Source: Sandarakinorhabdus oryzae (GTDB lineage: Bacteria > Pseudomonadota > Alphaproteobacteria > Sphingomonadales > Sphingomonadaceae). From it: a stretch of 36,815 nucleotides of DNA. Below the pieces are notes generated by a model, which had not been told where the DNA came from, made no database searches, and was given only the letters and a program-made list of their open reading frames with translations. The stretch covers positions 1 to 36,815 of the forward strand of contig NZ_WNJP01000011.1 of the NCBI RefSeq assembly GCF_009733735.1, in the 5' to 3' direction. Shown one piece after another: positions 5,836 through 27,711 of the stretch. Made by a program: the position numbers and the translations under genes. Numbering within the stretch: position 1 is the first letter of the stretch; every line of letters starts with the position of its first letter.

Positions 5836-5840
5836 GCGCC

Positions 5841-7079: not shown

Positions 7080-7155
<76 letters not shown>

Positions 7156-7200
7156 CCTTCTTAATGACTTAGATGTGAGTTGCGGGCATCGCCTACTGGC

Positions 7201-7234: not shown

Positions 7235-9913
7235 CTAGCTTGCGAACCGCTTCACGATAAAATCCAATCCCATGTTGTCTTGGATCTGATCATGCGGGAT
7301 CAGAGCGTAGCGCCACGGCTTGCCGCCATGTGGCATTCCGTGCTCGCTCGCTTGCTGGCACCACTTTGTGGCCACGTCACGCTTCGCAAGCACATCGCTA
7401 TCTTGCATCTTTGTCGCCATCTTAGGCTCAAGCATAAGGATCTCGATTTCAGTCTCCGCCACAAAGTCCGGAATGTATTCCTGATGATCGCTGCCATCGC
7501 GATAGAACATCTGGAATTGCCCCTTAGCGGGCTTGAACCATTTCAGGCTCTCACGCTCAAGAATGACCGAGAGCTTGCGCTCGGTATCAGACTGGAAACG
7601 GACCGGCGTCAGCAGACACTTGGAGTACCCCCCAAACAGGTAGCGCGCCATGTTGGACTTATCGGCAGGCGGCAACCGATAATCGAGTGGTTCGGTCTTC
7701 TCAGACGTATGGGCCGATGAACGGATTTCGGTGAATCCCTGTTTGACCACCGCCTCATATTCGACCGTGTCATCGATCCAATAATGATTGAGCATTTGCG
7801 CTCGGACAGCGCGGGCAATTACGTCCTGCTCCGCCTGCAACAGCGCCATCAGTTCGTTGTGCTCCATCCGCGAACGGAGATGCTCCACAACCTGTCCCGC
7901 CAGATCATAAAGGAGATCGGCATTGTCATCATACGAAACGTCAGGGAAGTTGATCAGTCCGCTGACGACATAGTCCTCTGGCGTCTTTTCGAGGAAATTG
8001 CCCTGAATGACGCCGATGGTATCCGCCTCATTCCGATCAAGGTAGCGGGCCAGCAAGGCACCATCAGGCGCAACGAGGTTCATGGTCGAAAGGTCCAGCT
8101 TGAAGGGTCGGAATCCTGCCTTCACCTCGCCCTTTGGCATCAGGGATATACGCGGGATGCTGATCGTCTGGTCGATGACCTCAGATGAGGTCTCAGCGGC
8201 AATCTTGGCGAAGTCCGGCGGCGGGACTACGCCTTCCAGCGCCATCTGTTGCGGGCGATATTGGCTCCGCACCTCGCGGACGAGCTTTTCCTGCACATCG
8301 GGTCGGGTTAGATAGCTGATGTCCGGAACTACAGACGGATCACGCGACAGCTTCCGGATCGCCTCATAGGTGAGCTGTGCGACGCGCTGCGTCTCGGCAT
8401 CCTCAAACTTGGGTTTGGGCTGCGTGCCTGCATATTTCGCACCCTCATCGCCCTGCCCCGAAGGCAGGCCCAAGCGCGCAAGAATGGTCGGTGTGGCGAC
8501 AACCGTTACCTTCTTGTGGTCCAATATCTCCTCATCGAGCACTAGCGTGCGCAGCCGAATGGGGGACCTGGGATTGTTCGCTTCGTCCACTATCTCCTGA
8601 AAGCGGTCATGCGCCACGATGTTCAGGCGATCCACCGCTGCAACCCCAGTGCGTTTGCCATATGGCAACCGAAGGCCGCGCCCGATGCTTTGTTCAATCA
8701 GGGTGCGGGCATTGGCGGCGCGAAGCGGCACGATGGTGTAGAGGTTGGTTACGTCCCAGCCCTCTTTCAACATGTTGACGTGGATGACGATTTCGACCGG
8801 GTTGTCGGCGTGCTCCACGGTCAGCAGCTTTTCGACCGTTTCCTCTTCCTTCACGCTCGAATCGACCTGAATCACCTTCTCGGCATAGTTGCCGCCGAAA
8901 AACACGTCGGACTGGATCAGCTTCATCAGTTCCGCCGCATGGGTCGTGTCGCGGGCGATGACGAGGACAAAGGGCTTGACGATCCGCTCGCCATTTTCGC
9001 GGGCATAGGTTTCCAGATCGACCTTCACTCGCTCGTGCAAGCGGATGCCGTCCTCCAGCTTTATCTGTTCGATGCTCGCGGGCGTTTTCCCGGCTGCGAT
9101 GAAGTTCTTGCGCGTGACGACCGCCGGGTCCTTGACGAAGCCATCCTCCATCGCGCGGGCGAGCGGATAGTCGAACACCACATTGCGGAACGGCACCGGC
9201 CCCTTGCTGCCCTCGACAAAGGGCGTCGCGGTCAATTCGAGGCCCATGACCGGGTTCAGCTCGTTGATCGCCCGCATGCCCGCCGTGGCGCGATAGCGGT
9301 GGGATTCATCCATCAGCATGACAAGGTCTTGCTGCTTGGAAAGGTAATCGAAATAACTGTCGCCAAGGGTTTCCTGCATCGAGCGGATGCGCATCTGTTT
9401 GCCGCCGCGCACTTCGCTGGTGATCTTGGAAATGTTGAAGATGTTGATCTTGCAGCGCAGGACATCGTCCAGCAGCGCGCCCCGGCTCTCGTAATTCTCG
9501 CCGGTAATGACCTCGGGGGTCATCACGGAGAATTCGGCAATGCCCTTGAACACATATTTGGGCGTGTTGCGTGTGAAATCCTCGATCAGCTTCTTGTAGA
9601 TCGTAAGGTTAGGCGCAAGCACGAAGAAATTGTTGATGCCGTGCGCGATGTGCAGATAAGCGACGAAGGCCCCCATCAGCCGGGTTTTGCCGACGCCGGT
9701 TGCCAGCGCGAAGCAAAGCGAGGGGAATTCGCGCTCGAAATCAGTCACGCCGGGGAATTCACTGCGGATCGCCTCCAGCGCGGCCTTTAGGTCAGCGCCT
9801 TTGCGGGGCGCGACGATCTCGGTCATCCGGTCGAGGATTTCGAGGCTGCGGCGCTGCGGTGCTCGCAGGCTCAGGCGGTTGCTGATCGCGTTGACATGAC
9901 GGATGTTGCTCAT
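7235..9913 (-). CDS. res: Type III restriction enzyme Res subunit (helicase-nuclease)
   Basis: Res subunits of type III systems use ATP to communicate between two unmethylated sites and then cleave DNA. The 892-residue protein shows a superfamily 2 motor: motif I GVGKT at 73-77, motif II DESH at 202-205, motif III LTATP at 227-231, and a C-terminal motor segment with EQSIGRGLRLPYG as motif VI. Near the C-terminus IPDF (815-816 PD) and LEPK (E829, K831) form a PD-(D/E)XK nuclease signature. A strong GGGGAGG ribosome site precedes the ATG, which overlaps the mod stop as ATGA. It is the last gene of a four-gene overlapping cassette and ends only 80 bases from attL. Confidence 0.92.
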   Translation of the reverse strand: MSNIRHVNAISNRLSLRAPQRRSLEILDRMTEIVAPRKGADLKAALEAIRSEFPGVTDFEREFPSLCFALATGVGKTRLMGAFVAYLHIAHGINNFFVLAPNLTIYKKLIEDFTRNTPKYVFKGIAEFSVMTPEVITGENYESRGALLDDVLRCKINIFNISKITSEVRGGKQMRIRSMQETLGDSYFDYLSKQQDLVMLMDESHRYRATAGMRAINELNPVMGLELTATPFVEGSKGPVPFRNVVFDYPLARAMEDGFVKDPAVVTRKNFIAAGKTPASIEQIKLEDGIRLHERVKVDLETYARENGERIVKPFVLVIARDTTHAAELMKLIQSDVFFGGNYAEKVIQVDSSVKEEETVEKLLTVEHADNPVEIVIHVNMLKEGWDVTNLYTIVPLRAANARTLIEQSIGRGLRLPYGKRTGVAAVDRLNIVAHDRFQEIVDEANNPRSPIRLRTLVLDEEILDHKKVTVVATPTILARLGLPSGQGDEGAKYAGTQPKPKFEDAETQRVAQLTYEAIRKLSRDPSVVPDISYLTRPDVQEKLVREVRSQYRPQQMALEGVVPPPDFAKIAAETSSEVIDQTISIPRISLMPKGEVKAGFRPFKLDLSTMNLVAPDGALLARYLDRNEADTIGVIQGNFLEKTPEDYVVSGLINFPDVSYDDNADLLYDLAGQVVEHLRSRMEHNELMALLQAEQDVIARAVRAQMLNHYWIDDTVEYEAVVKQGFTEIRSSAHTSEKTEPLDYRLPPADKSNMARYLFGGYSKCLLTPVRFQSDTERKLSVILERESLKWFKPAKGQFQMFYRDGSDHQEYIPDFVAETEIEILMLEPKMATKMQDSDVLAKRDVATKWCQQASEHGMPHGGKPWRYALIPHDQIQDNMGLDFIVKRFAS

Positions 9914-11667
9914 TGCCCGTCCTCCCCGTCAAACAGGCCGCCTTGCAGGGGATTGCGCGCGGGTGGTGGCGCGTCATCCTCCACCGCCTCCGCCATCGGC
10001 AGGTTGGCGACGTTCAGCGAATAGTCGTCATGCCCCCATTCGCATTTGGAGCGGATGTGGTTGGGGATTTTGCGCAAGGTGAGGTTGGCGAATTGATCGG
10101 CATTGCCGCGCCATGCGGAACACAGGATCAGTAGCGAACGATCCGGCCCGACATCATCGGACAGCGCGGCCAGCTCATCCGGCCCCAGCGTCTGCGTGGT
10201 GACATAGAGGAAGTCGCGCTCGCTCGATTGACCCTGCTGCCACCAGATATCGGGGCTTGGCTGATAAGTGTAGCCTTCCAGCTTGCACAGCGCCTCCGCC
10301 AGCATCGCCGCGTCATAGTCCCGGCTTATGATCTCGCGACCCCACTTGTCCTTTTCAAGCAGGCTTGGTGCAAGCTCGTAGTAGCGGAAGCCACCGCCAC
10401 CCTTCCAATCGACCGCTTTGCTGATCCCGCCCTGGTCGCTGCCATTAATCACTTTTTGGAGGCGTGGCAGAATGTGAGTGTGAGCTTGGTCCCTCAGCTC
10501 CACCATAATCCAGCGGCGTCCCATCTTGTGAGCAGCTGCTCCCGTAGTTCCAGACCCACCAAATGAATCTAGGACCCAATCTCCCGGGTTTGTCGATAAA
10601 TCAAGGCAGCGCTTGATGAGCGCCTCCGGCTTCTTGCCTTTTGGAAAATCGACACCGCCCTCGTTATGCAAATTGTTAGACAGGATGTCGTCCCAAATAC
10701 TAGTCAGCGGCTCACCGGCAACATACTGACCATCGACGAGCTTTAGCTTGTCCGCATAAAAAAGGATACGCTGTCCGCCGATGAAATACATATCCGAGAG
10801 GTTCGGCCGTTCGAGCTTGAAAACCTCTCGGGGGGCACTTTTGGATGCATCAATCATTTCGCGCGCAGCTGAGCTGACCGCGTTATAGTCTGGTCTCGCA
10901 AGCTGTATTACCGCCTCAGCATTTGCATGAACAAATGCGGTCATCTCAGTCTCAAAGTCATCTCCGAGTGCCTTTTTCACCGCCTTTTCTGGGATACCTT
11001 TGGCGTCTGAAAAGGCTCGCATCAATGTGCAGAAACGCCATTCAGCAAATGGTTCGGCGACGTTCTCAATGAACTGTCCGTAACGCTTATCGCGCTCAAA
11101 CCGTGCAGTGAAAACACGGTTTGGCTTCCAAACCGATTTATCCTTAGCGTAGATGAGGATAAAGTTGGACGTACTGACAAGTCCGGGATTGATGGACTTG
11201 TGGCCGGTTGCAGAACCCTGTTTGAAAGTGGCGATGTTTATGCGGTTCCGCCGGCCAAAAATTTCGTCGGTTAGAACGGTAAGATAGGCAAGTTCGTTGT
11301 CATCGATGTGGATAAACAAGGTTCCGTCGGGAGCCATCAATCGATGAATGATTTCCAGCCGATCACGGATCAAAGCAAGCCATAGCGAATGCTCAAGACC
11401 ATCCTCATAATGATCAAACGCTTGTTGGGTATTGAATGGCGGATCAATGTACACGCACTTCACCTGACCTGCAAAATCCGCCTCCAAGGCCTTCAGCGCG
11501 AGCAAATTGTCGCCATGGATCAGGATATTGTCGAAGATGTCATTGTCACTCACCCGCGCCGCTGCGTGATAGCTTCTCTCAGGAATCTCCCTCAGAATGC
11601 GCGGTTCCAGCCGGGGCCGGTTCTCCTTGCCCACCCATGTCAGTTCAAGTTTCTGCTTCTTCGTCAT
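9910..11667 (-). CDS. mod: Type III Mod subunit: beta-class adenine-N6 DNA methyltransferase
   Basis: Mod recognises the target sequence and methylates an adenine in one strand, and it gives Res its specificity. In this 585-residue protein the catalytic motif IV DPPF (75-78, within CVYIDPPFNTQ) precedes the SAM-binding motif I FGGSGTTG (369-376). This order defines the beta class used by type III enzymes. The variable stretch between them, about residues 150-320, is probably the target recognition domain. The start codon overlaps the stop of the AIPR gene (ATGA), and the stop overlaps the res start in the same way, so the three proteins are probably made in fixed proportion. The recognition sequence cannot be predicted from sequence alone. 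Confidence 0.92.
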   Translation of the reverse strand: MTKKQKLELTWVGKENRPRLEPRILREIPERSYHAAARVSDNDIFDNILIHGDNLLALKALEADFAGQVKCVYIDPPFNTQQAFDHYEDGLEHSLWLALIRDRLEIIHRLMAPDGTLFIHIDDNELAYLTVLTDEIFGRRNRINIATFKQGSATGHKSINPGLVSTSNFILIYAKDKSVWKPNRVFTARFERDKRYGQFIENVAEPFAEWRFCTLMRAFSDAKGIPEKAVKKALGDDFETEMTAFVHANAEAVIQLARPDYNAVSSAAREMIDASKSAPREVFKLERPNLSDMYFIGGQRILFYADKLKLVDGQYVAGEPLTSIWDDILSNNLHNEGGVDFPKGKKPEALIKRCLDLSTNPGDWVLDSFGGSGTTGAAAHKMGRRWIMVELRDQAHTHILPRLQKVINGSDQGGISKAVDWKGGGGFRYYELAPSLLEKDKWGREIISRDYDAAMLAEALCKLEGYTYQPSPDIWWQQGQSSERDFLYVTTQTLGPDELAALSDDVGPDRSLLILCSAWRGNADQFANLTLRKIPNHIRSKCEWGHDDYSLNVANLPMAEAVEDDAPPPARNPLQGGLFDGEDGQ

Positions 11668-13514
11668 GTGATATCGGTTTCATTCGGCTGGGGCGGCGCA
11701 ACGGCGGGAGCTGCCTGCCCTTGATTCTGAGGTTGGAAGATAGCAGCCTTTAGCGCACCAAACAGGTTTTGGCAGTCGCCTTGGGTCTTAAACACCGATT
11801 GGAAGTCGCGCTGCGTCGTTAACACCTGCAGCCCACCAAGGACCGCCTCATAGGCCGCAAAGCCTTTGGCCACGGCCTGAGCGAGCAGCTTCTCGGCATA
11901 GTCCGACACAGCGGCAGAGATCGCGGCCTGCTCGTCGGCCGTCAACGCTAAGGCTTCGCCCTCCTGCGGCTTAAGCCTAACATAAATCGCCGACAGGACG
12001 ATCCAACGCGCATTCGTGTAAAACGACTTGGTTGCTCCATTGGCCGCTTTGGCGCTGTCCCCCATCCCTTTCAGCACGATCCGCTGCGCTTGGACCGCGC
12101 GCCAAGCCGACCGTGCCGAAAGGCCTTGCGGAAACACGCGCTGGTGGCGGCTGGGGCACAGGACATCATCCGGAAAGGCAACGTCCAACGACAGAAGCGA
12201 GGGCCGGTTTGCGGCAACGCGGGTCACGAGATCGCAATCTGCGGCGTTGGCCAGACACGCGCATGCCGTCAACGCCTCATCAATGGTGAAGTTTGTCTCG
12301 TCGGCGTCAGGCGTATCCTCATCAATGCGGTAATGATAACCGATCCCATGCGGCCTCAGGGTCGATGCCATTTGCGCATGCAGTGGATAGGCGGCGGCAA
12401 AGTCTTTGAGGAGCACGGTGTTCTGAAAGTTCGCCGTCCGCGAAATCCGATCCGCAAAAGCACGGTCATCCACGCACTTTTCCAGCGATACGATCTTGAT
12501 AAAGGCGAACCCTTTCGGAGCAGCATCACCTTCGGGAACCTGAACGCATTTGGCGATAGAGCCAAGCGTTTGTGCGCCATTGATGATGGCAAAGCCCTTG
12601 GCGGTTACCCGCTTGCGTTCCGCGTTGGTTCGATCAACGGGGTAGAGCTCCAGCCGGTCGCAGTAAGCAGTCAGCCCGTTGTTGAGATAGTGGAATAGCT
12701 GCGCCTCATCTGAGAGCGTTTTCTGGATGTCCTCGTTAACCTCGGTACTGCCTTTGAAACCCCTGATGTTCGCGCGCACCAGCTTTGCGCCGTGTTCGTC
12801 GTAAAGCGCCTTCAGCTTCTCTAGCGGGATCAAACCATAGATGGTTTCGTAAGGCGTGGTGACATAGCCAGGGCGAACGATCTCAAGCTCGACCGTTTCG
12901 ATCCCCGGCCCAACATCCCCGCCACTGACCCAATCATTCAAAGTGGTCAGGTTTACCGCTTGGAACGCGAAATAATCGTCTGTTTGATCAAGCGCGAGCT
13001 TCGCGCGCAAGCTTTCAAACAAATGTTTGCGGTCCTCGGAAACAAACGAAAGGCCTGAATAGCACAGCACGGCCCGGGCCTGCGTTGACGCGTTCTTTAG
13101 AGCCGCTTCAAGCTGGGGACGTAAGGCGGTGATTTTCGCGTTTTCTGCAAAGGCATCAAAACGCCCTTCGAGCATGTTTTCAAGGCCGGTCTTGAACTTA
13201 GTAACGTCTCCCAAGTCCGGTTCGCCCGTCCCTGAATGAATGTACTTCGACTGAACCAGCCAAAGCGTATTGGTGACAGGGGAAAAGTAGATTCCATCAA
13301 TTCCGCCATCGCCACCGCCATCGACGACGCCTGCGGCGGCATCTTGAATTGATGCACCACCAAGCTTGTGGAGCGCATAGGCGGCGAGCGCCCTGCTAAG
13401 AAAATCCCGCTCATTTTGATCCGCATCGCCATTTGCCTTGATCGGTAAATGGCCGTCGAAAAGCTCATGAAGCTTGGGCGCTAACGCCAGAACTTCAATC
13501 GGACGATCCGCCAT
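11664..13514 (-). CDS. AIPR-family protein with a PD-(D/E)XK-like N-terminus
   Basis: The 616-residue product matches the AIPR (abortive infection phage resistance) family by its central features: YVTTPYETIYGLIPL, FKGSTEVNEDIQKTL, FHYLNNGLTAYCD and the IINGAQTLGS motif at roughly residues 215-320. Members of this family are found with restriction and abortive-infection genes, but their biochemistry is poorly known. The N-terminus has VDGGGDGGIDGIY (D73) followed by WLVQSK (Q88, K90), the spacing of a D-x(n)-(E/Q)-x-K nuclease core. I chose the ATG that overlaps the helicase stop as TGATG, with GGAG nine bases before it, over an earlier GTG. It lies between the SNF2 helicase and mod, both overlapping. 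Confidence 0.85.
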   Translation of the reverse strand: MADRPIEVLALAPKLHELFDGHLPIKANGDADQNERDFLSRALAAYALHKLGGASIQDAAAGVVDGGGDGGIDGIYFSPVTNTLWLVQSKYIHSGTGEPDLGDVTKFKTGLENMLEGRFDAFAENAKITALRPQLEAALKNASTQARAVLCYSGLSFVSEDRKHLFESLRAKLALDQTDDYFAFQAVNLTTLNDWVSGGDVGPGIETVELEIVRPGYVTTPYETIYGLIPLEKLKALYDEHGAKLVRANIRGFKGSTEVNEDIQKTLSDEAQLFHYLNNGLTAYCDRLELYPVDRTNAERKRVTAKGFAIINGAQTLGSIAKCVQVPEGDAAPKGFAFIKIVSLEKCVDDRAFADRISRTANFQNTVLLKDFAAAYPLHAQMASTLRPHGIGYHYRIDEDTPDADETNFTIDEALTACACLANAADCDLVTRVAANRPSLLSLDVAFPDDVLCPSRHQRVFPQGLSARSAWRAVQAQRIVLKGMGDSAKAANGATKSFYTNARWIVLSAIYVRLKPQEGEALALTADEQAAISAAVSDYAEKLLAQAVAKGFAAYEAVLGGLQVLTTQRDFQSVFKTQGDCQNLFGALKAAIFQPQNQGQAAPAVAPPQPNETDIT

Positions 13515-16378
13515 CAGATGACGCTCCACCGGATCGTGAAGAGGTTTTCTTCATCGACCTTTTGCTCAAGCCTCGCCTCGATATTGTTGATGAGCTCGGC
13601 CCGCTGCTCATCGATGCGGTCCTGTGCATCGAACAGTGAGCGCCGCTTGCTATTGCGCTCGCTTTCCAGCGCCTTGACGGCCTTTTGGCCCGCCAGCTTA
13701 TCCTCAAGCGTCAGCGCCGCCGTTGCCGCACGCCTGGCCTCTTTAATCTGCCGGTCAATCTCTCTGATCTCACGTTCCAGTCCAACTTTCAGATCATCTG
13801 CCCAACCGTCGAGTTTGGTCGCCTCTTCCTCGAAGAAACGGGCATTGCGCTCCGAGATGGCCTGCCGAACATGCGCCCGCTGTTGATCGATAGCATTGGC
13901 AAGTGCAGCATCAATCAGGATTGGAACGGCAACCTCGGAGCCTACCGCACCGCCGACCGTCATCAAGCGGCTGGTCATCTCATCGGTAAGGATCGTCCCG
14001 CCATCAGAAATGGCAGAAAGCAGCAGATGGTCTTCGCCCTGCCCCAAAGCTTCAATGCTCAGCAGCCTTGCAGTTAGCCACCCGGATTGCCCCTTAAGCG
14101 GGTTCAGGATCGAGACCTGCCCGTCATGCCCGGATAGGTCAAAGGTCATTTCAACGATAGGGAGATTACGCCCTTTCGCGCGAGCGACAATCGCCTCACC
14201 CAGTGGGTGATTGATCCGAAACAGGTGCGCTTCGCCTGTCCGTCTCGGCAGCTCATAGAGGCCAGTAGGTATCTCGTCAGCGGCCAGCCATTCGGGATGA
14301 CGCATAAGGTTGAAACTGGAGTCGTCAATAAAGTGCGCGTCATTGGCCAATTCAAACTCGGCCAAGCGCATCAGACTTCTCTCGAAGCCTTTAAGCTGCG
14401 CGGTTGTGTTTTCACTAGTATTGCGCAGCTTTTCCCTTACCTCGTCATCAAAATTTTCAAGCAACTTACGCCGTGCGTTCGTCATGGCCTCATTTATTTC
14501 AAGACTGAGCTCCAATTGCAGCTTGTCGAATGCAGCCTTGATCTCGTCATGCTGACGGCATTGCTGATAGATGCCGGCAATGCGCTTTTCGAGATCAACC
14601 CCAGATTCAATTGCCCCGAGCACCTCATCGCTGGCGCCGAAAACACCTTCAAATAGCTGAAACTTCTCGGCTAGTAGTTCATAAACACGGCGATCAGCTT
14701 CATTCTTCCGGTTTAGGAAGTTGACCACCACGACATCATGCTTTTGCCCATAGCGATGGCAGCGGCCAATGCGCTGTTCGATCCGCTGGGGATTCCAAGG
14801 CAGGTCATAATTCACGACCATCGAGCAGAACTGGAGGTTTATGCCCTCAGCGCCTGCTTCAGTCGCAATCATGATCCGCCCCTTTTCGCGGAAGTAGTCA
14901 ACCAAAGCGGAACGCATGTCCGCTGTCCGCGAACCGGTAATGCGATCCGAACCGGTATGTTTGGCCAACCAAACATCATAGATTTGCTTAGATTCTGGGT
15001 CGGTGTTGGAACCATTGAACAGGACAATGCCCTCTGCATAGTCACTGTCACCTAGAAGGCGGAGAAGGTAGCTCTGGGTCTTTCGGGACTCGGTGAAGAT
15101 GATAGCCTTCTCGGCTGCGCCAAGCTCTCGTGCCTTGTCGAAGCCGACTTTCAACGCTTTGAGAAGGGCTAGGCCTTTCGCATTATGCTCGACGGATGTG
15201 GCCAGATTCGTAAACTCACGAAGGTCGGCAATCTCGTTCCTGAGTGCTTGCGCTTCTTCGTGAGATATCGGCTCGACCTCATCATCACCCCATTCCTCGG
15301 CTGTCTCGTCGAGAACCTCGTAATCCTCATCCAACTCGTCAACGAGGTCTTGGCTAGGCTCCGCATTGTCGAGACGCTTTTGCAGGCGGTCTGCGATAGA
15401 ACCTAGTGCCCCGGCGATGGCGAAGGTCGATGATGCGAGCAACTTCCGCAGGACAAGCGTCATAAGTGATCGCTGGCTTGGTGGCAGCGCTTGAAGGTTC
15501 GAGCGCCCGAGATACTCGGTCACATGATCATAAAGACGGTCTTCAATTTCGCTCGGGTCAAACGCCTCAAGGATGGCGTGACGGCGAGTGTAGGGCACAT
15601 ATGCGGTTACCTGTCGACGCAAAGTGCGATGGCAAACGGGGCGCAGCCGCTCCTTGAGAATGTCAAACGATCGATCCTGAGATAGATTGGCAAACTGTTC
15701 GCGAAAGCTCTTCAGATCACCAAATGCGTGCTCGTCGATAAAGCTCACCAGGCCGAAAAGCTCGAGAAGCGAATTTTGCAGTGGCGTCGCGGTGAGTAGC
15801 AGCTTCTGCCTACCCTCAAAGGCCCGCTTCAAGGTATTAGCGATCACATTTGAGGGCTTGTAAACGTTCCGAAGGCGATGGGCTTCGTCCAAAACAACAA
15901 GATCCCACGCAGTTCCGCGCACATCCAATTCCTTGCTGCGGGCAAACTGGTAGGAGCAGATCGCGACGCGTCCCGGGCGGTCAAAGGGATAGCGTTCACC
16001 GCTCTTGATCAACTGGTTGTATGACTTAGCTTCAAGAATTTCGCAGGGTAGGAAGAACTTTTGACTGAGTTCCTGATGCCATTGCTTCCGCAGATTGGCA
16101 GGCGCAACGATCAGGATGCGCCGCTTGCCCTCGGCCCATCGTTGGGAAATGACCAAACCGGCTTCGATAGTTTTCCCCAATCCGACTTCATCAGCCAGCA
16201 GGGCTCCTTTTGAAAGGGGTGACGCAAAGGCGAATAGTGCCGCATCAACTTGGTGCGGGTTCATGTCGACCTGCGCACCCGCAACAGCGATCGCAAGCCG
16301 TTCCGAACTATCGGCCGAACGCCGCCGAACCAAGTCCGACGCTATGAATTTTGCGTGATACTCGTTAATGCCAGCCAT
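13514..16378 (-). CDS. SNF2/RapA-like DEAD/DEAH-box helicase (defence-associated)
   Basis: This 954-residue superfamily 2 ATPase has SNF2-type motifs: I at DEVGLGKTIEAG (GLGKT 66-70), II as LDEAHRLRN (DEAH 164-167), III as LTATPLQNSL, V as ATEAGAEGINLQ and VI as QRIGRCHRYGQ. Enzymes of this type translocate on double-stranded DNA and displace bound proteins. An acidic insert (DELDEDYEVLDETAEEW) separates the two motor lobes. The last 200 residues are rich in charged heptads and probably form a coiled coil, ending in LFTIRW. The ATG at 16378 is preferred to a TTG two codons upstream. It is the first gene of the cassette with AIPR, mod and res. SNF2 helicases also occur in class 1 DISARM (DrmD), but the DISARM core genes drmA and drmB are missing here. 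Confidence 0.9.
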   Translation of the reverse strand: MAGINEYHAKFIASDLVRRRSADSSERLAIAVAGAQVDMNPHQVDAALFAFASPLSKGALLADEVGLGKTIEAGLVISQRWAEGKRRILIVAPANLRKQWHQELSQKFFLPCEILEAKSYNQLIKSGERYPFDRPGRVAICSYQFARSKELDVRGTAWDLVVLDEAHRLRNVYKPSNVIANTLKRAFEGRQKLLLTATPLQNSLLELFGLVSFIDEHAFGDLKSFREQFANLSQDRSFDILKERLRPVCHRTLRRQVTAYVPYTRRHAILEAFDPSEIEDRLYDHVTEYLGRSNLQALPPSQRSLMTLVLRKLLASSTFAIAGALGSIADRLQKRLDNAEPSQDLVDELDEDYEVLDETAEEWGDDEVEPISHEEAQALRNEIADLREFTNLATSVEHNAKGLALLKALKVGFDKARELGAAEKAIIFTESRKTQSYLLRLLGDSDYAEGIVLFNGSNTDPESKQIYDVWLAKHTGSDRITGSRTADMRSALVDYFREKGRIMIATEAGAEGINLQFCSMVVNYDLPWNPQRIEQRIGRCHRYGQKHDVVVVNFLNRKNEADRRVYELLAEKFQLFEGVFGASDEVLGAIESGVDLEKRIAGIYQQCRQHDEIKAAFDKLQLELSLEINEAMTNARRKLLENFDDEVREKLRNTSENTTAQLKGFERSLMRLAEFELANDAHFIDDSSFNLMRHPEWLAADEIPTGLYELPRRTGEAHLFRINHPLGEAIVARAKGRNLPIVEMTFDLSGHDGQVSILNPLKGQSGWLTARLLSIEALGQGEDHLLLSAISDGGTILTDEMTSRLMTVGGAVGSEVAVPILIDAALANAIDQQRAHVRQAISERNARFFEEEATKLDGWADDLKVGLEREIREIDRQIKEARRAATAALTLEDKLAGQKAVKALESERNSKRRSLFDAQDRIDEQRAELINNIEARLEQKVDEENLFTIRWSVI

Positions 16379-16516: not shown

Positions 16517-17146
16517 ATGAGCGGCGGGATCGTCTATATTCTGACCAATGAAGCAATGCCGGGATATGTCAAGATTGGCCTCACGCAACAGGATGATGTC
16601 GGGGATCGGGTAAGGCAGCTTGATAACACTTCGATCCCGGTTCCTTTCGAGTGCTACTTCGCGGCCCATGTGCCCGATTGCCGAAAGGTTGAGCGAACGC
16701 TGCATTTCGTCTTCGGTGGACGACGCGCGCGGCGCAACCGTGAGTTCTTCACGATCGATCCAGACTTGGCGAAGGCTATCATCGAGTTGGTCGCCATCGA
16801 CAAGGTTTCCCTGACCGATGCAGAACAATCTATCGACAAGGAGGAGCGGCGCGAAATCGAGGATATGCGCAAACGCCGTGAGGTGAGGACCTTCCCGAGC
16901 ATGAATATTCCCGTTGGCAGCGTGCTGACGTTCATCAAGGATGAAACGGTCACCTGCACCGTAGCCGGCCCGCGCAAGGTCAACTTTCGAGGCGAAGAAA
17001 TGAGCCCGTCCAAGGCTGCGCTGCTTGTCATCCATGAAATGGGATACGATTGGCCAGCAGTCAGCGGTATGGCCTATTGGGCCTACGAGGGGGTCAAGAT
17101 CGGCGACTATGGAAACCGAGAAATCGCAGATGACGATGATGCCTAG
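16517..17146 (+). CDS. GIY-YIG nuclease-like protein (T5orf172/MUG113 type)
   Basis: The 209-residue product begins with a GIY-YIG fold: GIVYILTN (residues 4-11) and YVKIG (17-21), then the conserved arginines of DRVRQL (R31, R33), and KVERTLHFVF with E59 and H63, as in the T5orf172 subgroup. GIY-YIG domains of this subgroup are usually endonucleases. The C-terminal part (MSPSKAALLVIHEMGYDWPAVSG) resembles the small DUF4357/RAMA-like modules attached to restriction proteins; I am less sure of that. A CGGAGGG ribosome site lies 10-11 bases before the ATG. It is divergent from the helicase cassette, and a protein with a possible second nuclease core follows 40 bases later. Confidence 0.75.
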   Translation: MSGGIVYILTNEAMPGYVKIGLTQQDDVGDRVRQLDNTSIPVPFECYFAAHVPDCRKVERTLHFVFGGRRARRNREFFTIDPDLAKAIIELVAIDKVSLTDAEQSIDKEERREIEDMRKRREVRTFPSMNIPVGSVLTFIKDETVTCTVAGPRKVNFRGEEMSPSKAALLVIHEMGYDWPAVSGMAYWAYEGVKIGDYGNREIADDDDA

Positions 17147-18572: not shown

Positions 18573-18816
18573 GGCAAGCTGCGAGAAGCCCAATCGGCTA
18601 TTGGAGCTGCAGAACCGTGCGCCGCATCTCCAGCTATTGATACTAGACCAGGGACGTTTTCACTCAACAGAAGGCTGACGGAGCTGCCCCAAGTCACAGT
18701 ATTTCGTTAAAAAGCTAGCTTGAGAGACACAGAGCCGCCGTCCGAAGAGCCAGAGGTTGGGCCTGAGACGCAGCCGATCTCGATGTATGATGCCGTCCGA
18801 GACGACGGAGACATCC

Positions 18817-19440
18817 ATGGGCGGCATCGGATCAGGCGCCAGGCGATCATTTCACGCTGGTAAGGTTGAGGAGGAGCTGGCGCTCGATATTCGCGCCCTG
18901 CGGCGGCTGGGCGTCGTTAGAATCGGCGAGTGTGTGATCGACACAATTCGATGGTCTAGCGGCGGCCTAAGCGGCGTTTACGCGCGCCTTCGAACCGATC
19001 TCAGTGATTTTGCTCGTGGCGGGACACTAACGATCAGCATTGCAGCGCCTGATGTGGCTACCACCACCCAGGATGTTGCGATCGAAATGACCCCAACCCC
19101 CTTCGGCGGGCACCGATGCTTTTTTGTCTGCCCGATTAGTGGCGGGCGCTGCGAAGCCCTTTACTACATCTATGGCAGGTTTGGCTCGCGTAAGGCTCAT
19201 AGGCTTAGCTATGCTGTGCAAGGCATGGATGCCTTGACCAGAGCGCGCCGAAAGGCAGCTAAGCTGCGTCGCAGACTGAAGGGCTTGGACAACCAACCAC
19301 GGCCGCGAGGGCGCAACCGGATTGAGCTGGCAGAACGCCTTCAAATGGTAGAATCCCAAGTCCGGACGCTATACCTTGATCGGCTTAGTTCTCTGGTCGA
19401 TCGGTCTGGTTCCCAACGGATGCCCCGCGACAGGACGTGA
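18817..19440 (+). CDS. Hypothetical protein of the MGGxGSG-start type
   Basis: The 207-residue product begins MGGIGSGARR and continues LDIRALRRLGVVRIG, GGLSGVYARL, TPTPFGGHRCFFVCP and LYYIYGRFGSRKAHRLSYAVQ. This layout matches a family of hypothetical proteins common on proteobacterial islands, whose function is unknown. In that family two CxxC-type clusters usually follow the FGG.R..F.CP segment. Here the first reads CPISGGRC and the second pair is absent, so metal binding may be lost. I chose the ATG with GGAG six bases upstream rather than an in-frame ATG 60 bases earlier. The 244 bases before it hold no recognisable gene. Confidence 0.65.
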   Translation: MGGIGSGARRSFHAGKVEEELALDIRALRRLGVVRIGECVIDTIRWSSGGLSGVYARLRTDLSDFARGGTLTISIAAPDVATTTQDVAIEMTPTPFGGHRCFFVCPISGGRCEALYYIYGRFGSRKAHRLSYAVQGMDALTRARRKAAKLRRRLKGLDNQPRPRGRNRIELAERLQMVESQVRTLYLDRLSSLVDRSGSQRMPRDRT

Positions 19441-20369: not shown

Positions 20370-20411
20370 AAACTGGCCGAAATGTCCCTACAGAGGGGTT
20401 TCGGCCAGTTT
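20370..20411. repeat. 13-bp perfect inverted repeat over the primase-helicase stop codon
   Basis: The arms AAACTGGCCGAAA and TTTCGGCCAGTTT are exact complements separated by 16 bases and enclose the stop codon of the minus-strand gene. A second pairing, ACCCCTC (20363-20369) with GAGGGGT (20393-20399), competes with the first because it uses the loop. The result is two mutually exclusive stems at the end of the transcript, next to the terminator. Confidence 0.7.
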
Positions 20412-22115
20412 CCAGTGTCGCCTCCTCTTTTCGACGCCCATCCTGCGCGCAACCTTGCGGAGGGTGCTGGGATTGATTGATCGCCGGTCCCCTTCCGCAA
20501 TTACATCCTTGACCGGCCGGGCTCCGTTGGCGAGTGCGCGCTTAAGGAACTGCTCCGCATCAACCCCTTCACTGGCAGGGCGCCCGGGCGGGTTGGGCTT
20601 TCGGCCAAGGTCGTTGGCCGTCAGATCAGTGGTCCCGCACCATACAAGCCGTGGCACACGTGTTTTGGTTTCACCGTCCAATGTGTAGAGACGGCTATCA
20701 CCCCGGACAGATAGATTGTGCTTTGAATGGGCGAAGACCCTGATGTCTTCATCGTCAGGGTGCAAACCGATCATGGTCGAGGACCGGGCAGCAGCGGAGA
20801 TATCAACCGACCCCAGGCCCCGATGGATGGCCTTGTCCTTGTCCGACTTGTTCAGGTGCCTAAGGCCAATGACTGTCACATTGTGGTCCCGCGCAAGCTC
20901 ACCAAGGCGCGCCATGAACGGGCGCGTTTCATTTGCCTTGTTCATGTCCACGCCCTGCATGTAGGCTAGGAGAGGGTCAATTGAGATGACCTTGACCCCA
21001 TTTACCTTGATGTGCTCCTCGATCAGCATGATCACGTCCTCATTGAGGGGCAGATATTTCATCACCCAGATGCGCGAAAGATCGCCGCCCATGCGCGTAA
21101 ATCGCTGAAACAAAGTTGTCTCAGGATCGTCCTCGGCGCTTAGGAACAAGAATCCTTGTGGGTCCATGGCTTCTTGGCCTGGCAATGCCCTGCCTGACGA
21201 CAAGAGCGCCGCGAGCCAACATAGGAAGTAGGTCTTACCCACATTCCCGTCGCCTTCGAGCAGGTTGACCGCGCCCCGCACAAAATAGGGCTTCCAAAGA
21301 AACTCTACTGCACGCGGCGTCACGTCGGACATCAGCGTGAATAGGCCCTCGTGTGCAGGGTCATATCGGCTGATGCTGCCCGCTATTGATTCCACTTCGC
21401 TAGTCGGCAAGGGTGGCTCGCAGAACTTGCGGTTGAAGGTATCAAGCAGGCTGAAAATCACTGGTTCGCTGTAGCCTTGCCGCCGAATCGATCCCGCAAT
21501 CTGGGTCAGGCGGCTATTTCGCCCGCCCTTAGTAACTTTGATCGCCCCCGCCTCTTCCTGCGCCATGTCGCCTTTCCGTTTGGACCTGTTGCTGCGGTGC
21601 TTGCGAATGGCCTTCACCACCTCATTAGGCAGGTCCGCGATAGGTGCGCCGAAGTCCTTCGACGAGTAGATACCGCCATCAGGATGACGTGAACCGGGCA
21701 GCAGCACATAGCTGGACAGCAGGAAGTCCAAATCAACCGCAAACTTGATGACACTCCCGCCAAGGTTACCGGAGTAGCGGTAAAACCTGTGGCTGCCCTT
21801 CCTTGTCCGCGTTTTGCGCGTGGGAGGCAGCTTTGCCAACCGTTTGAGCGCTGTAGCGGCTTCGGGGCCATCTTCATCCACAACGCATATGCCAGAGCCT
21901 TTAAGGCCAGCCGCAAGATTGATCTCGCCGTCCTGCGCAAGCCAACGCTTCACTGTCTTGAGCGACTTGGTTGCGCTATTCAGGCCATGTGGTGAAAAGC
22001 GGGTGTCCGGGCTTTTGGAACGAGGTTTGATGGCAATAATGCCCATGCCAGCAGCAATCGCATTTTCAGCGATCTCTGCCAGCATAGCTGCCCGTTTAGA
22101 GAGCTTACTGGACAT
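20388..22115 (-). CDS. Prim-Pol domain / RepA-like AAA ATPase (island replication protein)
   Basis: The 575-residue product combines a bifunctional primase-polymerase domain with a hexameric-helicase-type ATPase. The Prim-Pol part has PHGLNSAT, the GSGICVVDEDG strand with the DxD metal pair (D80, D82) and SHRFYRY (H109). A PriCT-like linker (GRNSRLTQIAGSIRRQGYS) follows, then a RepA/KaiC-like ATPase: Walker A GDGNVGKT at 288-295, Walker B VISIDPLL with D380, and LRHLNKS as sensor. The C-terminus (SINPSTLRKVARRMGVEKRR) looks like a winged-helix. Such fusions start replication of plasmids and integrated elements. A GGGAGG ribosome site nine bases before the chosen ATG decides the start; an earlier in-frame start adds 22 residues without one. 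Confidence 0.85.
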   Translation of the reverse strand: MSSKLSKRAAMLAEIAENAIAAGMGIIAIKPRSKSPDTRFSPHGLNSATKSLKTVKRWLAQDGEINLAAGLKGSGICVVDEDGPEAATALKRLAKLPPTRKTRTRKGSHRFYRYSGNLGGSVIKFAVDLDFLLSSYVLLPGSRHPDGGIYSSKDFGAPIADLPNEVVKAIRKHRSNRSKRKGDMAQEEAGAIKVTKGGRNSRLTQIAGSIRRQGYSEPVIFSLLDTFNRKFCEPPLPTSEVESIAGSISRYDPAHEGLFTLMSDVTPRAVEFLWKPYFVRGAVNLLEGDGNVGKTYFLCWLAALLSSGRALPGQEAMDPQGFLFLSAEDDPETTLFQRFTRMGGDLSRIWVMKYLPLNEDVIMLIEEHIKVNGVKVISIDPLLAYMQGVDMNKANETRPFMARLGELARDHNVTVIGLRHLNKSDKDKAIHRGLGSVDISAAARSSTMIGLHPDDEDIRVFAHSKHNLSVRGDSRLYTLDGETKTRVPRLVWCGTTDLTANDLGRKPNPPGRPASEGVDAEQFLKRALANGARPVKDVIAEGDRRSINPSTLRKVARRMGVEKRRRHWKLAETPL

Positions 22116-22116
22116 C

Positions 22117-22314
22117 TTACTTAACCTCCCGCCATCGAATACGGGTTTGCCGCAATGTTCCAGCGGGTACCGTGCCCACAAATGGATCTGGGACCTCGAT
22201 TACAAACCGAAGCCTCAACTCATCGCATTGTGGGTGTGCTACCTCGAATACAAATCTGTACCAGTTCGCCTTCTCTTTCAGAGGCGAGATATGAACTTCG
22301 ACAGGTCTGCCCAC
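22117..22314 (-). CDS. Small unknown protein overlapping the AlpA-like gene
   Basis: From a GTG inside the end of the AlpA-like gene, 65 codons read VGRPVEVHISPLKEKANWYRFVFEV..., with balanced composition and alternating hydrophobic residues typical of a beta-rich protein. The stop lies one base before the start of the Prim-Pol gene, inside its ribosome site region, so the genes may be coupled. The same frame is open further upstream, but there it gives Arg/Ser-rich low-quality sequence opposite to the AlpA frame. I do not recognise the protein, and the start is uncertain. Confidence 0.4.
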   Translation of the reverse strand: MGRPVEVHISPLKEKANWYRFVFEVAHPQCDELRLRFVIEVPDPFVGTVPAGTLRQTRIRWREVK

Positions 22315-22512: not shown

Positions 22513-23172
22513 CTATCTCCCTGGTTCAACTGCGGCTTCACAACTTTGTGAATCCAAATTCCGCAACCCTGTTTTGTTCCGCTTCAGGAAATCCAGAACT
22601 GTCTTTGCTACCTTCGATAGGTGAGAACCGTCGGGAATGTTTTGGTTTTGGGCTGGACACCAATCTCCGAGGTGCCTGACGATGGCGGCGTTCGTAGGCA
22701 GGCAATCTTGTTGCAACGTAAACATCCATGCCTCGTGGACGATCTTGTCCCATTCAAAGCTGTGCTTCTTGCGTGGCCTGCCCGCTTCTGGAAGCACTGC
22801 AATAAGCTCAGGCTCATCGACCCAGCACGGCTCCCAAGCATCATATTGGATCCTACAAGCCCCGCTCTGAAGGCATACGGCAAAAACGGGATCGGTAACC
22901 CAATGGAGGGGCAAATCCGTGATGCTGGATCCATCGTCCGTAAGCGCGTAAACCTTGACGCGCCCGCCCGTAATGTAGTCGTGAAGCAAGTCTTGGACAT
23001 GCTTAGCCCGATCCCAGGCCTCCCGGTCGGGCGCTGCATCAGCACCAAATACCAGCACGGCTGGATCATTTTCAGACCAGTTAGAATGGTGAAATCGTTC
23101 ACCAACCAGATTGGCAGCTGCGGCAAGACTGATCCGTCGATTCGTTGGCGGCGCGTTATTCACTAAGGCCAT
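22513..23172 (-). CDS. Hypothetical island protein downstream of the integrase, 219 residues
   Basis: I do not recognise the family. The N-terminus (RRISLAAAANLVGERFH) resembles a short helix pair. The C-terminal third (FEWDKIVHEAWMFTLQ...PTNAAIVRHLGDWC) reads like a putative helix-turn-helix, which is common in proteins coded next to alphaproteobacterial island integrases. I chose the ATG that overlaps the last 17 bases of the integrase gene because GGGGGAG lies eight bases upstream; a longer frame starts further inside the integrase without support. The overlap suggests co-translation with the integrase. Confidence 0.6.
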   Translation of the reverse strand: MALVNNAPPTNRRISLAAAANLVGERFHHSNWSENDPAVLVFGADAAPDREAWDRAKHVQDLLHDYITGGRVKVYALTDDGSSITDLPLHWVTDPVFAVCLQSGACRIQYDAWEPCWVDEPELIAVLPEAGRPRKKHSFEWDKIVHEAWMFTLQQDCLPTNAAIVRHLGDWCPAQNQNIPDGSHLSKVAKTVLDFLKRNKTGLRNLDSQSCEAAVEPGR

Positions 23173-24304
23173 CAAGAAAGCTCCCCCAAGAATCCAAAGC
23201 GTCTCGTCGTTCGGCGTCATAGCCGTAGCGATTATATACTGCCGCAACGCCGCTGATGGTGCCAGATATGTGGTTCAATACCTTTTCCACAACATGCGGC
23301 GCGATCCCTGCCCTCGCCATTCCTGACGCCGCTGTGCGACGCAAGTCGTGGAGTCTCCAGTCCGATGTCTCGGACAGCGCGTGGATCTGCCGCAACGCCT
23401 TACTGAACCCGCTGATTGGTGACCGCCGCGTCGTGGTAAACACCCAATCACAACCGGCAAAGCGTGGGACAGCCGCCAGCAACCGCAGCGCATACTTGTT
23501 GAGCGGTACCAGGTGCGGTTTGCCGTTTTTGGACAGATCTGCCGGAATCACCCATTGCTTGGCCTCCAGATCGACTTGGCTCCACTTCATCTGTGAGACC
23601 TCGCCGCGTCGCTGACCTGTGGCCAGCAACAGAGGCACGAACTGGCAGAAGGGATACGAAAGCCCCGCGCATACCCGCAGCACGGCGCGCAGTTCATCAT
23701 CCTGCAGCACCCGGTCGCGTGGGTGCTCTCGGGTCGGCGGCTTGGTGCCCTGCACCGGTGAGGCGTCCACAATACCGCGCTCTACGCACCAGTTGAACAG
23801 CTTGCGCAGGTTTGAATGGATACGGTTTGCCTGATAAGATGCCCCGCGCTCGATGGCGCCGTCCATTAGCTCCAGGATGTCGTGGCGCTTGATGTCACGA
23901 ATATCGCGCTGTCCATACTGGCCTACGAACTCACGCCGCAGGATGCGCTCCGCCTCCTTCCAGCTGCGGTTGCGCGGGCGCGCATACTGACGAATGAAGT
24001 CATTGCAGATTGCCTCAACGCTCATCCCCGGCTGACGGCGACGCGCGGCAGGGTCAGTCCCCTCATCCACCAGCCGCAAGGCTTCGAGTGCTTTGGCGCG
24101 GGCTTCAGCGAGGGAAATGCGCGGATGAACGCCAAGCGGCAGTCGGCGTTGTTTCAAACCATAGCGATACTTGACCGTGTAGACCTTCCTGCCGGTCGGA
24201 AACACGCGAAGGCTGAAACCGGGGCACAGGATGTCATGGATTTCATACCGCTTCACCTGCGGCTTGAATGCATCGATTGCTTTTGCGCTAAGTGCTTTCC
24301 GCAT
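23156..24304 (-). CDS. Tyrosine integrase, DUF4102/P4 type
   Basis: The enzyme integrates and excises the island at the tRNA-Lys gene. The 382-residue protein begins with the DUF4102 arm-binding domain (about residues 1-90: FKPQVKRYEIHD, CPGFSLRVFPTGRKVYTVKYR, LPLGVHPRISLAEAR). A core-binding SAM-like domain and the catalytic domain follow. Catalytic residues are complete: R232 in TGQRRGE, H319 and R322 in LHDLRR, H345 in LNHIS, and Y357 in VYNRY as the likely nucleophile. Its position about 3 kb from the right end, instead of beside an attachment site, is unusual. It is transcribed away from attR, with a downstream gene overlapping its stop. Confidence 0.93.
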   Translation of the reverse strand: MRKALSAKAIDAFKPQVKRYEIHDILCPGFSLRVFPTGRKVYTVKYRYGLKQRRLPLGVHPRISLAEARAKALEALRLVDEGTDPAARRRQPGMSVEAICNDFIRQYARPRNRSWKEAERILRREFVGQYGQRDIRDIKRHDILELMDGAIERGASYQANRIHSNLRKLFNWCVERGIVDASPVQGTKPPTREHPRDRVLQDDELRAVLRVCAGLSYPFCQFVPLLLATGQRRGEVSQMKWSQVDLEAKQWVIPADLSKNGKPHLVPLNKYALRLLAAVPRFAGCDWVFTTTRRSPISGFSKALRQIHALSETSDWRLHDLRRTAASGMARAGIAPHVVEKVLNHISGTISGVAAVYNRYGYDAERRDALDSWGSFLDGLSE

Positions 24305-27374: not shown

Positions 27375-27419
27375 CTCTTAATCAGCGGGTCCCAGGTTCG
27401 AGCCCTGGTGCGTCCACCA
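27375..27419 (+). repeat. Right attachment repeat (attR), 3' fragment of tRNA-Lys
   Basis: This is an exact 45-base copy of the tRNA-Lys 3' end from the anticodon loop to CCA. It lacks the acceptor 5' strand and D arm, so it cannot be a functional tRNA. It marks the right boundary of the island. Confidence 0.96.
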
Positions 27420-27711
27420 TTTTCGCTGTTTCCATGGCCGCCTTCCTGCAATGAAACCTAGCAGAGCGACTGTGTTCGGCTCGGTTGCGGCTGCGCGTTC
27501 GCTGGTCGAATCGCGGCGTCAGTCGTCTTGATCGTCCTATATCGGCACCGGCGTTGGCCTCTGCATTAAGCGCAAGTGTCCAGAGGGTTTCCGCATTGGC
27601 CACGCTGCGTGCCGGTTCGTCGGCTCGTCGCATTTCCCGTTCCAAAAGGACGATATCGCTCGCCGGCCAGGATGCTGCTGATAGACTCGGTGCGCCGGGG
27701 GGATCGGGTGT
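27420..27711. other. Non-coding gap right of the island
   Basis: No gene, RNA or repeat could be supported in this 292-base stretch. Open frames here are arginine-rich and lack ribosome sites. It probably holds the promoter of the glycoside hydrolase gene and the original sequence downstream of tRNA-Lys. Confidence 0.5.

Follow-up and report, generated by a model that had tools for sequence, protein, structure and literature searches.

The window analysed here is a stretch of 36,815 nucleotides from Sandarakinorhabdus oryzae (contig NZ_WNJP01000011.1, positions 1 to 36,815), and its minus strand carries, between positions 7235 and 16378, four open and intact genes in the order SNF2, AIPR, Mod and Res. 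In our best reading of the sequence this cassette is a SNF2-associated type III restriction-modification (R-M) operon on a mobile island, in which the AIPR gene occupies a variable slot of a more widely shared SNF2-Mod-Res core. The four genes are as follows.

13514..16378, minus strand, SNF2-family ATPase, RapA/DrmD-like, 954 amino acids (aa) from its ATG (Pfam SNF2-rel_dom and Helicase_C)
11664..13514, minus strand, AIPR protein of 616 aa, between SNF2 and mod (Pfam PF10592)
9910..11667, minus strand, type III Mod, a beta-class DNA methyltransferase of 585 aa (N6_N4_Mtase; PADLOC MTase_III, 602 bits)
7235..9913, minus strand, type III Res, a superfamily 2 (SF2) ATPase with a C-terminal PD-ExK nuclease motif, 892 aa (ResIII; PADLOC REase_III, 594 bits)

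In the first three genes the stop codon overlaps the start codon of the gene that follows, reading TGATG at the SNF2/AIPR junction and ATGA at both the AIPR/Mod and the Mod/Res junctions. The catalytic motifs of SNF2 are DEVGLGKT, DEAH and QRIGR. In Mod, DPPF at residue 75 precedes FGGSG at residue 369, which is the beta-class order (i.e., motif IV before the S-adenosylmethionine motif), and Res, the gene of which adjoins mod, combines ATGVGKT and DESH of an SF2 ATPase with PDF...EPK of a C-terminal nuclease. The AIPR protein contains D-x3-D-G-G-I-D...QSK and scores 99.9 bits for PF10592, the gathering score of which is 25. The relatives of Mod in the PDB include EcoP15I Mod, and EcoP15I Res is among the PDB matches of the window Res. 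Thus, by motifs, PADLOC profiles and adjacency, Mod and Res both have the sequence features of type III R-M. A preliminary description of this DNA had proposed a four-gene overlapping unit, and the intact genes, the junctions as read and the agreement of motifs with family scans bear this out.

The four genes recur in the same order in distant taxa, and this recurrence exceeds chance. The order is found without insertions in Methylocystis (locus L019), Methylobacterium (L020), Nitrosomonas (L024) and a viral contig (L099) as well as in L204 and L215, and with extra genes in Lysobacter (L021), Burkholderiaceae (L023), Nitrincola (L037), L212 and L216. On a Deinococcus plasmid, three small genes stand 5' of Mod and one stands 5' of Res, and in the version found in E. 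coli an Abi gene separates SNF2 from AIPR.

The first gene of the cassette has a counterpart in known type III systems. A conserved helicase-like ATPase gene lies 5' of mod in the N4-methylcytosine (m4C) type III systems Eco86II of E. coli NCTC86 and BspHIV of Acinetobacter species H, and over 500 genomes are reported to have such a gene close to their type III genes (Murray et al., 2021; PMC8259958). In the passages of that paper that deal with it, this third ATPase is not required for methylation, no peptides of it were found in a partially purified, DNA-cutting Eco86II preparation, and its role is left open (PMC8259958). The window SNF2 is 44% identical over its full length to the SNF2 protein of the E. 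coli NCTC86 locus, which from its strain and gene order is presumably Eco86II. Like the window, the NCTC86 locus places an SF2 helicase-like gene ahead of mod and res (i.e., SNF2-Mod-Res). Unlike the window, it has no gene in the slot between SNF2 and mod, and its Mod (1040 aa) and Res (1126 aa) are of large-class size, whereas the window Mod and Res belong to a small class; it should also be noted that m4C was measured for Eco86II (PMC8259958), while the window is compared from its genes alone. By this homology the window SNF2 is identified as the predicted third helicase-like ATPase of type III R-M and a homologue of the Eco86II group. A small helix-turn-helix (HTH) gene lies immediately 5' of SNF2 in L008-L012 and L278 (named mads1 in L278) and a WYL gene in L014; no small HTH/WYL-type gene was seen 5' of the window SNF2.

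Other helicase-containing defence systems were also compared. By profile, the named helicase family closest to the window SNF2 is DrmD of DISARM (NCBIfam DrmD_b, 681 bits, under the cut-off of 950; PADLOC DrmD, 672 bits). A DISARM system made up of the DrmD-like helicase and the PLD gene of the island, which has weak DrmC matches, was rejected, as the helicase is sub-cut-off, no DrmB-type domain was found and almost 9 kb separate the PLD gene from the operon; DrmB (MZB/DUF1998, PF09369) had 0 matches in the window's own genome, which is 99.26% complete, while 8 of 14 control genomes were positive. An MZA system was rejected as well (MzaE, 57 bits against a cut-off of 1050). In the parts of the BREX literature relevant here, backup effectors (Schlafen, HNH/GmrSD, OLD-TOPRIM, REase and similar) are embedded in a methylation-based system, and BREX type 3 has a RapA-like Swi2/Snf2 helicase (PMC12839542), both of which resemble the present operons. 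Unlike BREX, the window has a Mod-Res core, and BREX core genes are absent from the matches of the window genes scanned (Pfam, PADLOC, NCBIfam). Neither AIPR nor DrmD is named in PMC12839542.

The association of SNF2 with Mod and Res was counted from both sides. Among 398 evenly sampled genomes of the phylum we found 20 related Res genes besides the window's own, of which the 12 with at least 5.8 kb upstream were judged and the other eight (<4.7 kb) were left out. SNF2 was upstream of 10 of these 12, and AIPR was present at four. The SNF2-side GTDB set consisted of the best 80 loci of one scan, 73 of which scored >800 bits with the family profile and 48 of these, with at least 8.5 kb downstream, were judged; in a viral set of 76 loci, 43 scored >800 bits and 28 had the same room. 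Loci scoring <=800 bits were left out (7/80 GTDB and 33/76 viral). Mod and Res were downstream of SNF2 in 40/48 GTDB loci of this best-80 set and in 25/28 viral loci. We took the counts by locus length alone because also admitting short loci when Mod and Res were found in them, which yields 45/53 and 30/33, respectively, favours the result; since the GTDB set is made of the best 80 loci, the SNF2-side counts favour near relatives. The tallies of loci, with their p-values, treat loci as independent and ignore kinship (e.g., L112 and L116 look like near copies), open reading frames (ORFs) were called mechanically, and the plasmid loci were hand-picked and are not a sample. Among the 13 AIPR-carrying loci compared below, the SNF2 and Res distances correlate (rho 0.64, p 0.0005), and several groups are common to the SNF2 and Res trees.

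A minority of loci tell against so close an association. SNF2 had no Mod and Res downstream in 8/48 GTDB loci (L055, L068, L074, L084, L085, L086, L091 and L095), in one of which, L074, Mod and Res lie upstream instead, and in 3/28 viral loci (L132, L136 and L138). Two of the 12 judged Res relatives (L205 and L207) lack SNF2. In L205, the related Res adjoins a short Mod (420 aa), with no SNF2 gene in the ~11.8 kb upstream; in L207, the related Mod-Res at 7874-10684 lies directly 3' of an isoleucyl-tRNA-synthetase-like gene. Among the short loci left out, L206 has a fragment of SNF2 and L208 one of AIPR. Of 50,697 phage records, one matched the SNF2 protein at E <= 1e-60. Nevertheless, SNF2, Mod and Res are, on these counts, distances and trees, a recurrent and largely co-inherited core, and AIPR is optional, as it is present in 6 of the 40 GTDB loci with Mod and Res. 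Because of the 10/12 Res-side and 40/48 SNF2-side associations, we place SNF2 with Mod-Res and not with AIPR. The helicase-AIPR pair of the preliminary description is therefore not supported, and of the idea that related Mod-Res genes would be accompanied by both a helicase and AIPR, the helicase part stood (10 of the 12) and the AIPR part did not (four of the 12).

A second class of type III systems served for comparison. Its Res (PADLOC PDLC03647) was found in 30 of 299 genomes; 15 of the 31 places, chosen for their upstream room, were taken (L293-L307), and 14 were judged, L305 being incomplete. An SNF2-class helicase was upstream in 11 of the 14, as in the window, and effector-type genes are likewise found within the operons (Schlafen in L301, GmrSD in L298). 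Ten of the 11 helicases belong to a different family of ~1070-1110 aa, and that of L306 belongs to the window's family; the ~1090-aa helicase aligns to the window SNF2 in pieces only (28%). The longer helicase is followed by a 224-260-aa gene in 9 of 10 loci, with DUF4391 in both of those checked. The proposal that AIPR replaced DUF4391 was rejected, as DUF4391 is real but found with the different ~1090-aa helicase. An upstream SNF2-type helicase is thus the rule in both Res classes sampled. Given this, and the helicase-like third gene documented beside hundreds of systems (PMC8259958), the preliminary description's surprise at finding more than Mod and Res in a type III cassette no longer holds.

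Between SNF2 and res, the operons vary. In the 139 SNF2 loci, 87 genes in 62 clusters lie between SNF2 and res. With a slot gene defined as an ORF of at least 110 aa, the 40 GTDB loci with Mod and Res had slot genes between SNF2 and mod in 23 cases, between mod and res in nine and in neither place in 15; the corresponding numbers for the 25 viral loci were eight, two and 16. Loci with genes only before mod outnumbered those with genes only between mod and res by 16 to 2 in the GTDB set (p 0.001). A Pfam scan of 36 of the 87 slot genes gave matches for 23, of which 17 were judged to be of defence-effector type or ATPase partners. The effector-type families include SIR2, Abi_2, Abi_C, Schlafen AlbA_2 with HATPase, GmrSD/DUF262 with HNH, PLD/NgoFVII and Fic, and further AAA_21 with DUF4276, SMC-like ATPases, HerA and a ThsA macro domain. 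The AIPR gene is, by gene order and family content, an occupant of a variable slot that lies mostly between SNF2 and mod and is elsewhere empty or filled by unrelated genes, many of effector type. The exact four-gene set is accordingly not obligate.

Several results weigh against this view of the slot. In the viral loci the positional comparison, 7 vs 1, is not significant alone (p 0.07). Pfam gave no match for 13 of the 36 slot genes scanned, and six of the 23 with a match are not plain effectors (a sigma-70-like protein, a RecD-like helicase, DUF2130, RhuM twice and Bro-N). There was no slot gene at all in 15/40 GTDB and 16/25 viral loci with Mod and Res. Because so many of these loci have an empty slot, SNF2 must do more than control cargo.

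Individual slot occupants were also noted. A SIR2 protein of ~1190 aa lies inside the SNF2-Mod-Res operon at 12874-16443 of L082 and, by clustering, at 7187-10759 of L211; the best PADLOC match of the L082 protein is DSR2 (479 bits), and the same locus has a RhuM-family gene between mod and res. The ATPase of L044 is LmuB-like by PADLOC (79 bits). In L104, the stretch 5' of mod holds a ThsA macro-domain protein (Thoeris-like) at 5107-5964, then a gene of 195 aa and one of 389 aa that has no match, and in L066 a sigma-70-like protein (7603-8532) is in the slot 5' of a large-class mod.

E. coli holds several states of the same operon. The cores of NCTC86 and of plasmid L281 have an empty slot; in TUM1881 the slot holds Abi and AIPR; in L279, L280 and L282 an AAA ATPase and an S8 (subtilisin-type) peptidase lie between SNF2 and mod, a pair found in 72 of 5,426 E. 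coli genomes; and a degraded locus has a DUF262 protein in its slot. These states bear on whether the four genes are one obligate complex with the helicase and AIPR as its integral abortive arm, as the preliminary description modelled them. Consistent with such a complex are the shared order and short overlaps in several distant hosts and the Abi+AIPR operon of E. coli, a 10.5-kb query that 24 of the 5,426 genomes match over at least 80% of its length, two of them with a truncated AIPR. AIPR is, however, present at only 4/12 Res-side and 6/40 GTDB loci, and closely related cores carry different cargo. Furthermore, the E. coli AIPR gene, which has matches in 24 genomes, is matched over at least 80% of its length in 19 and over less in five; three of these five, those listed, match 35% of the gene, and in two, SMN197SH3 and OkiPb01679, SNF2, Mod and Res are still listed beside the shortened AIPR. 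We consider an obligate complex very unlikely.

The slot genes may, conversely, be passengers, the junction 5' of mod being no more than a place in a defence island where insertions are tolerated, with the cargo independent of the core. The cassette is on a mobile island, defence genes cluster anyway, AIPR relatives exist outside the operon, and cargo-type genes are also found in type III operons without SNF2, all of which would suit mere passengers. Against this, the SNF2-mod position is favoured over mod-res in the GTDB loci, AIPR genes on the same strand overlap SNF2 or mod by short stretches in several loci, and the slot AIPRs stand apart from the other AIPRs sampled, as a dedicated lineage would. 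That the slot genes are passengers seems to us improbable.

The history of AIPR was compared with that of the core in 13 AIPR-carrying operons (the window, L006, L019, L020, L021, L023, L024, L037, L099, L204, L212, L215 and L216). The window is 68-71% identical to L099, L019 and L020 in SNF2 and 65-69% in Res, the Res of L099 being cut by a contig end, and only 27-31% in AIPR; its AIPR is no closer to theirs than to the AIPRs of L005 and L007, which are outside such operons. In the SNF2 tree the window groups with L099, L019, L020 and L204/L175 (support 95/93), while in the AIPR trees the window falls outside all other slot AIPRs. Forcing the AIPRs of the window, L019, L020, L099 and L204/L175 into one clade was 84 log units worse (approximately unbiased (AU) test, p 7e-5), and the same constraint on the four AIPRs without the window was rejected at p 0.0015. 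Cargo also differs among closely related cores, and the SNF2-AIPR distance correlation is 0.25 (p 0.07).

Other results speak against frequent exchange. The AIPR distances correlate with those of Res (rho 0.65) and Mod (0.58) as the core genes do mutually, and because AIPR is thus often inherited with the operon, the case for exchange rests on few branches. The slot AIPRs group together (86/61, and 92/91 for all 14 slot AIPRs when more rows are included). The window AIPR is moreover a long branch (1.65-1.86), which weakens the finer points of the trees. A fair reading is that the slot AIPRs belong to a dedicated lineage that is often inherited with the operon and sometimes exchanged. A fresh recruitment of the window AIPR from outside the operons was rejected on the broader tree, and we propose only exchange among operons, because the slot AIPRs form one group. 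In these comparisons, the AIPR rows called 'alone' (L184-L203) have short flanks, the whole loci being 2.6-4.1 kb, and the viral AIPR rows were checked for up to 10 kb on each side, L273 having a weak Mod match. A clean swap between the sister cores (100/100) of the Salmonella plasmid L011, with Abi, and of L215, with AIPR, was also set aside: loss of AIPR is as likely, because an IS256 element lies beside the Abi gene of L011 and both Abi and AIPR are present in L278 of E. coli.

Elsewhere in the window's own genome a second AIPR-family match was noted (contig C421:20434-20916, 28% identity, in an open frame of 684 aa). The broken AIPR frames of the same-family genome G030 have the same lengths and scores as those of the Hankyongella contig L094.

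The AIPR protein itself appears to be built of a nuclease and a nucleotide-binding part. Residues D65, D69, D73, Q88 and K90 do not vary across the N-terminal alignment (30 of 30 sequences). The AlphaFold2 model of the whole protein has a predicted local distance difference test score (pLDDT) of 66, with ~75-90 over most of the first 150 residues. No relatives in the PDB were found by sequence at E <= 0.1, and Foldseek gave no match to the whole model at E <= 0.001. With VIA-align, residues 20-198 were placed on FokI (Z 8.9, root-mean-square deviation (rmsd) 3.1, 140 aligned) and residues 3-191 on HamA of Hachiman (Z 7.3, rmsd 4.2); only two rows reach Z 8. Lower rows were Upx (6.1), a CdiA toxin domain (6.0), a Pyrococcus repair endonuclease (5.3) and Shedu (4.4), and because some GTPases score 4.1-4.5, only the top rows count. 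In this model, residues ~4-198 look like a PD-(D/E)xK nuclease domain of predicted activity, and the nuclease-like N-terminus of the preliminary description is upheld by both the invariant residues and the fold match. The central domain (~219-389), modelled alone from 37 sequences, reached a pLDDT of 85.5. VIA-align gave ParB-N at a middling Z of 5.9 (rmsd 6.0, 121 aligned) and sulfiredoxin (Srx) at 4.9 (rmsd 3.6, 95 aligned), with the next unrelated row at 2.4; Foldseek gave ParB-N with probability 0.97 and E 0.011, and nothing at E <= 0.001. This domain is tentatively modelled as ParB/sulfiredoxin-like and would probably be a nucleotide-binding part. A ParB-like centre fits because DndB, the N-terminal domain of which was placed in the AbiU1/AIPR family (Makarova et al., 2012; PMC3506569), is described as ParB-like (PMC12704722). 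The same 2012 paper, in its passage on AIPR, assigns the family an N-terminal HEPN domain, while the N-terminus of the window AIPR resembles a restriction-endonuclease fold; no HEPN model of Pfam was matched by the whole AIPR in a general scan, with no HEPN-specific test made.

This architecture raises another explanation for the gene. AIPR may be a second, modification-dependent (type IV-like) restriction enzyme, with an NTP-driven ParB/Srx-like domain and a nuclease, which would cut modified phage DNA that escapes Mod-Res and so widen the range of the system with no killing of the cell. GmrSD enzymes combine a ParB/Srx-like part with a nuclease, a plan that AIPR resembles, and operons of this type include GmrSD/DUF262 proteins in L009, L035 and L275 and, for the other type III class, in L298; the invariance of the nuclease residues of AIPR is a further point in favour. 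No modified-base reader was found, with no search aimed at one, the C-terminal part of AIPR (~440-616) has no domain assignment, and many other slot occupants (DSR2, Abi, Schlafen and Fic) are of the abortive type. We regard a type IV-like role as possible but doubtful.

In type III systems, Mod methylates one strand of an asymmetric site, and Mod-Res cuts DNA with inverted unmethylated sites; in EcoP15I-type enzymes, cleavage follows ATP-driven communication between inversely oriented sites. By analogy, the window Mod would recognise an asymmetric site and methylate self DNA, and Res with Mod would cut unmethylated DNA after such ATP-driven communication. The SNF2 ATPase would act in vivo on restriction complexes or on proteins bound to DNA, which it may clear or recycle or the state of which it may report; action in the cell is most likely because the third ATPase was dispensable for methylation and undetected in the active preparation, according to the relevant passages of PMC8259958. 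AIPR would be a second-line nuclease effector, silenced by the products of the operon and released when restriction is blocked or overwhelmed, and co-translation across the stop-start overlaps would coordinate effector and keeper. We give about an even chance to this reading, i.e., an SNF2-type III platform with an exchangeable, probably backup, AIPR effector that guards restriction, because many slot occupants are of effector type, their coupling to the core is tight and the catalytic residues are intact. A backup arm, as in the preliminary description, is plausible, and the restraint of AIPR by SNF2, Mod or Res is modelled on that of PrrC by EcoprrI. PrrC, which is released when restriction by EcoprrI is inhibited and the gene of which is nested in a restriction locus, and PARIS, a guardian of restriction, follow a similar logic, as described in the relevant passages of PMC12707154 and PMC3506569; unlike the predicted AIPR nuclease, both are tRNA nucleases, PrrC belonging to a type I host locus and PARIS being a stand-alone sensor.

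In a broader form of the guard reading, SNF2-Mod-Res would be a general defence hub, in which the SNF2 transducer reads whether Mod-Res is stalled, inhibited or unsuccessful and releases whichever effector is in the slot: the AIPR nuclease in the window and, in other operons, DSR2, Abi, Schlafen, GmrSD, Fic or a protease. This we think rather unlikely. The hub is judged less likely because Fic genes, which also weigh on the guard reading, are found in second-class operons where no SNF2 was found (between mod and res in L297 and before res in L293).

The surroundings of the cassette have the following features.

7080..7155, plus strand, tRNA-Lys(CTT), integration site of the island (ARAGORN)
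7111..7160, plus strand, presumed attachment site (att) copy, a 50-bp direct repeat covering the 3' end of tRNA-Lys
16517-17146, plus strand, GIY-YIG (T5orf172/MUG113) gene, divergent from the SNF2 gene
20388..22181, minus strand, Prim-Pol/PriCT-1/AAA primase-ATPase of the island (Pfam)
23156..24304, minus strand, tyrosine integrase with an Arm DNA-binding domain, on the island (Pfam)
25233-26528, minus strand, PLD-fold protein with weak DrmC/NgoFVII similarity, same island
27375..27424, plus strand, second presumed att site, where the 50-bp repeat recurs with 96% identity at a distance of 20,264 bp

The island bounded by the 50-bp repeat is ~20.3 kb long and holds the cassette, the integrase and the Prim-Pol/AAA gene. 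Its G+C content is ~53-60% over the region of 7.5-27 kb, compared to ~66-69% in the flanks. Because the repeat pair at tRNA-Lys encloses an integrase and a Prim-Pol/AAA gene, the cassette was most likely brought in as cargo by a mobile element that integrated here. No empty integration site was found: in four regions of the same genus the right flank aligns, and neither the left flank nor a tRNA-Lys lies beside it. A homologue of the GIY-YIG gene (70 bits) is present at 18695-19342 of the viral contig L143, which also has an SNF2-Mod-Res operon. A PLD/NgoFVII-like gene, comparable to the PLD gene of the island, occupies the slot of L013. The 461-aa protein encoded at 17187-18572 on the plus strand had no Pfam, PADLOC or NCBIfam match at E <= 0.001, and the ORFs of the searched neighbourhoods included no homologue of it.

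Several elements of this picture are already in print. These are the third helicase gene (2021; PMC8259958), embedded backup effectors in BREX (2026; PMC12839542) and, from 2012, AIPR beside type III systems and the displacement of toxins: in the passages concerned, type I and III R-M systems were proposed to carry exchangeable toxin domains (HEPN, Sir2, ParB and REase), AIPR is named, and AbiU1/AIPR is linked to type III R-M (PMC3506569). In those passages, unlike here, the SNF2 gene is not singled out, the slot is uncounted and exchange is untested. Among the matches listed in a full-text literature search, in which subscription papers and preprints were thinly covered, there was no SNF2-AIPR-Mod-Res set and no counted slot in SNF2-type III operons. 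What is apparently new, as a combination that we have not seen in print, is a counted slot with a positional bias, its exchange against the core and the predicted make-up of AIPR as a PD-(D/E)xK nuclease plus a ParB/Srx-like domain.

The function of the conserved third ATPase, present in hundreds of type III systems, is left open in the published account of it (PMC8259958). The finding of one core with many cargos, several of them in E. coli, provides a natural series that makes the role of this ATPase testable. If the slot is an effector bay, its unnamed occupants would be a short list of possible new anti-phage genes, and if SNF2-Mod-Res should prove to be a general hub, the orphan third ATPase of type III systems would gain a function.

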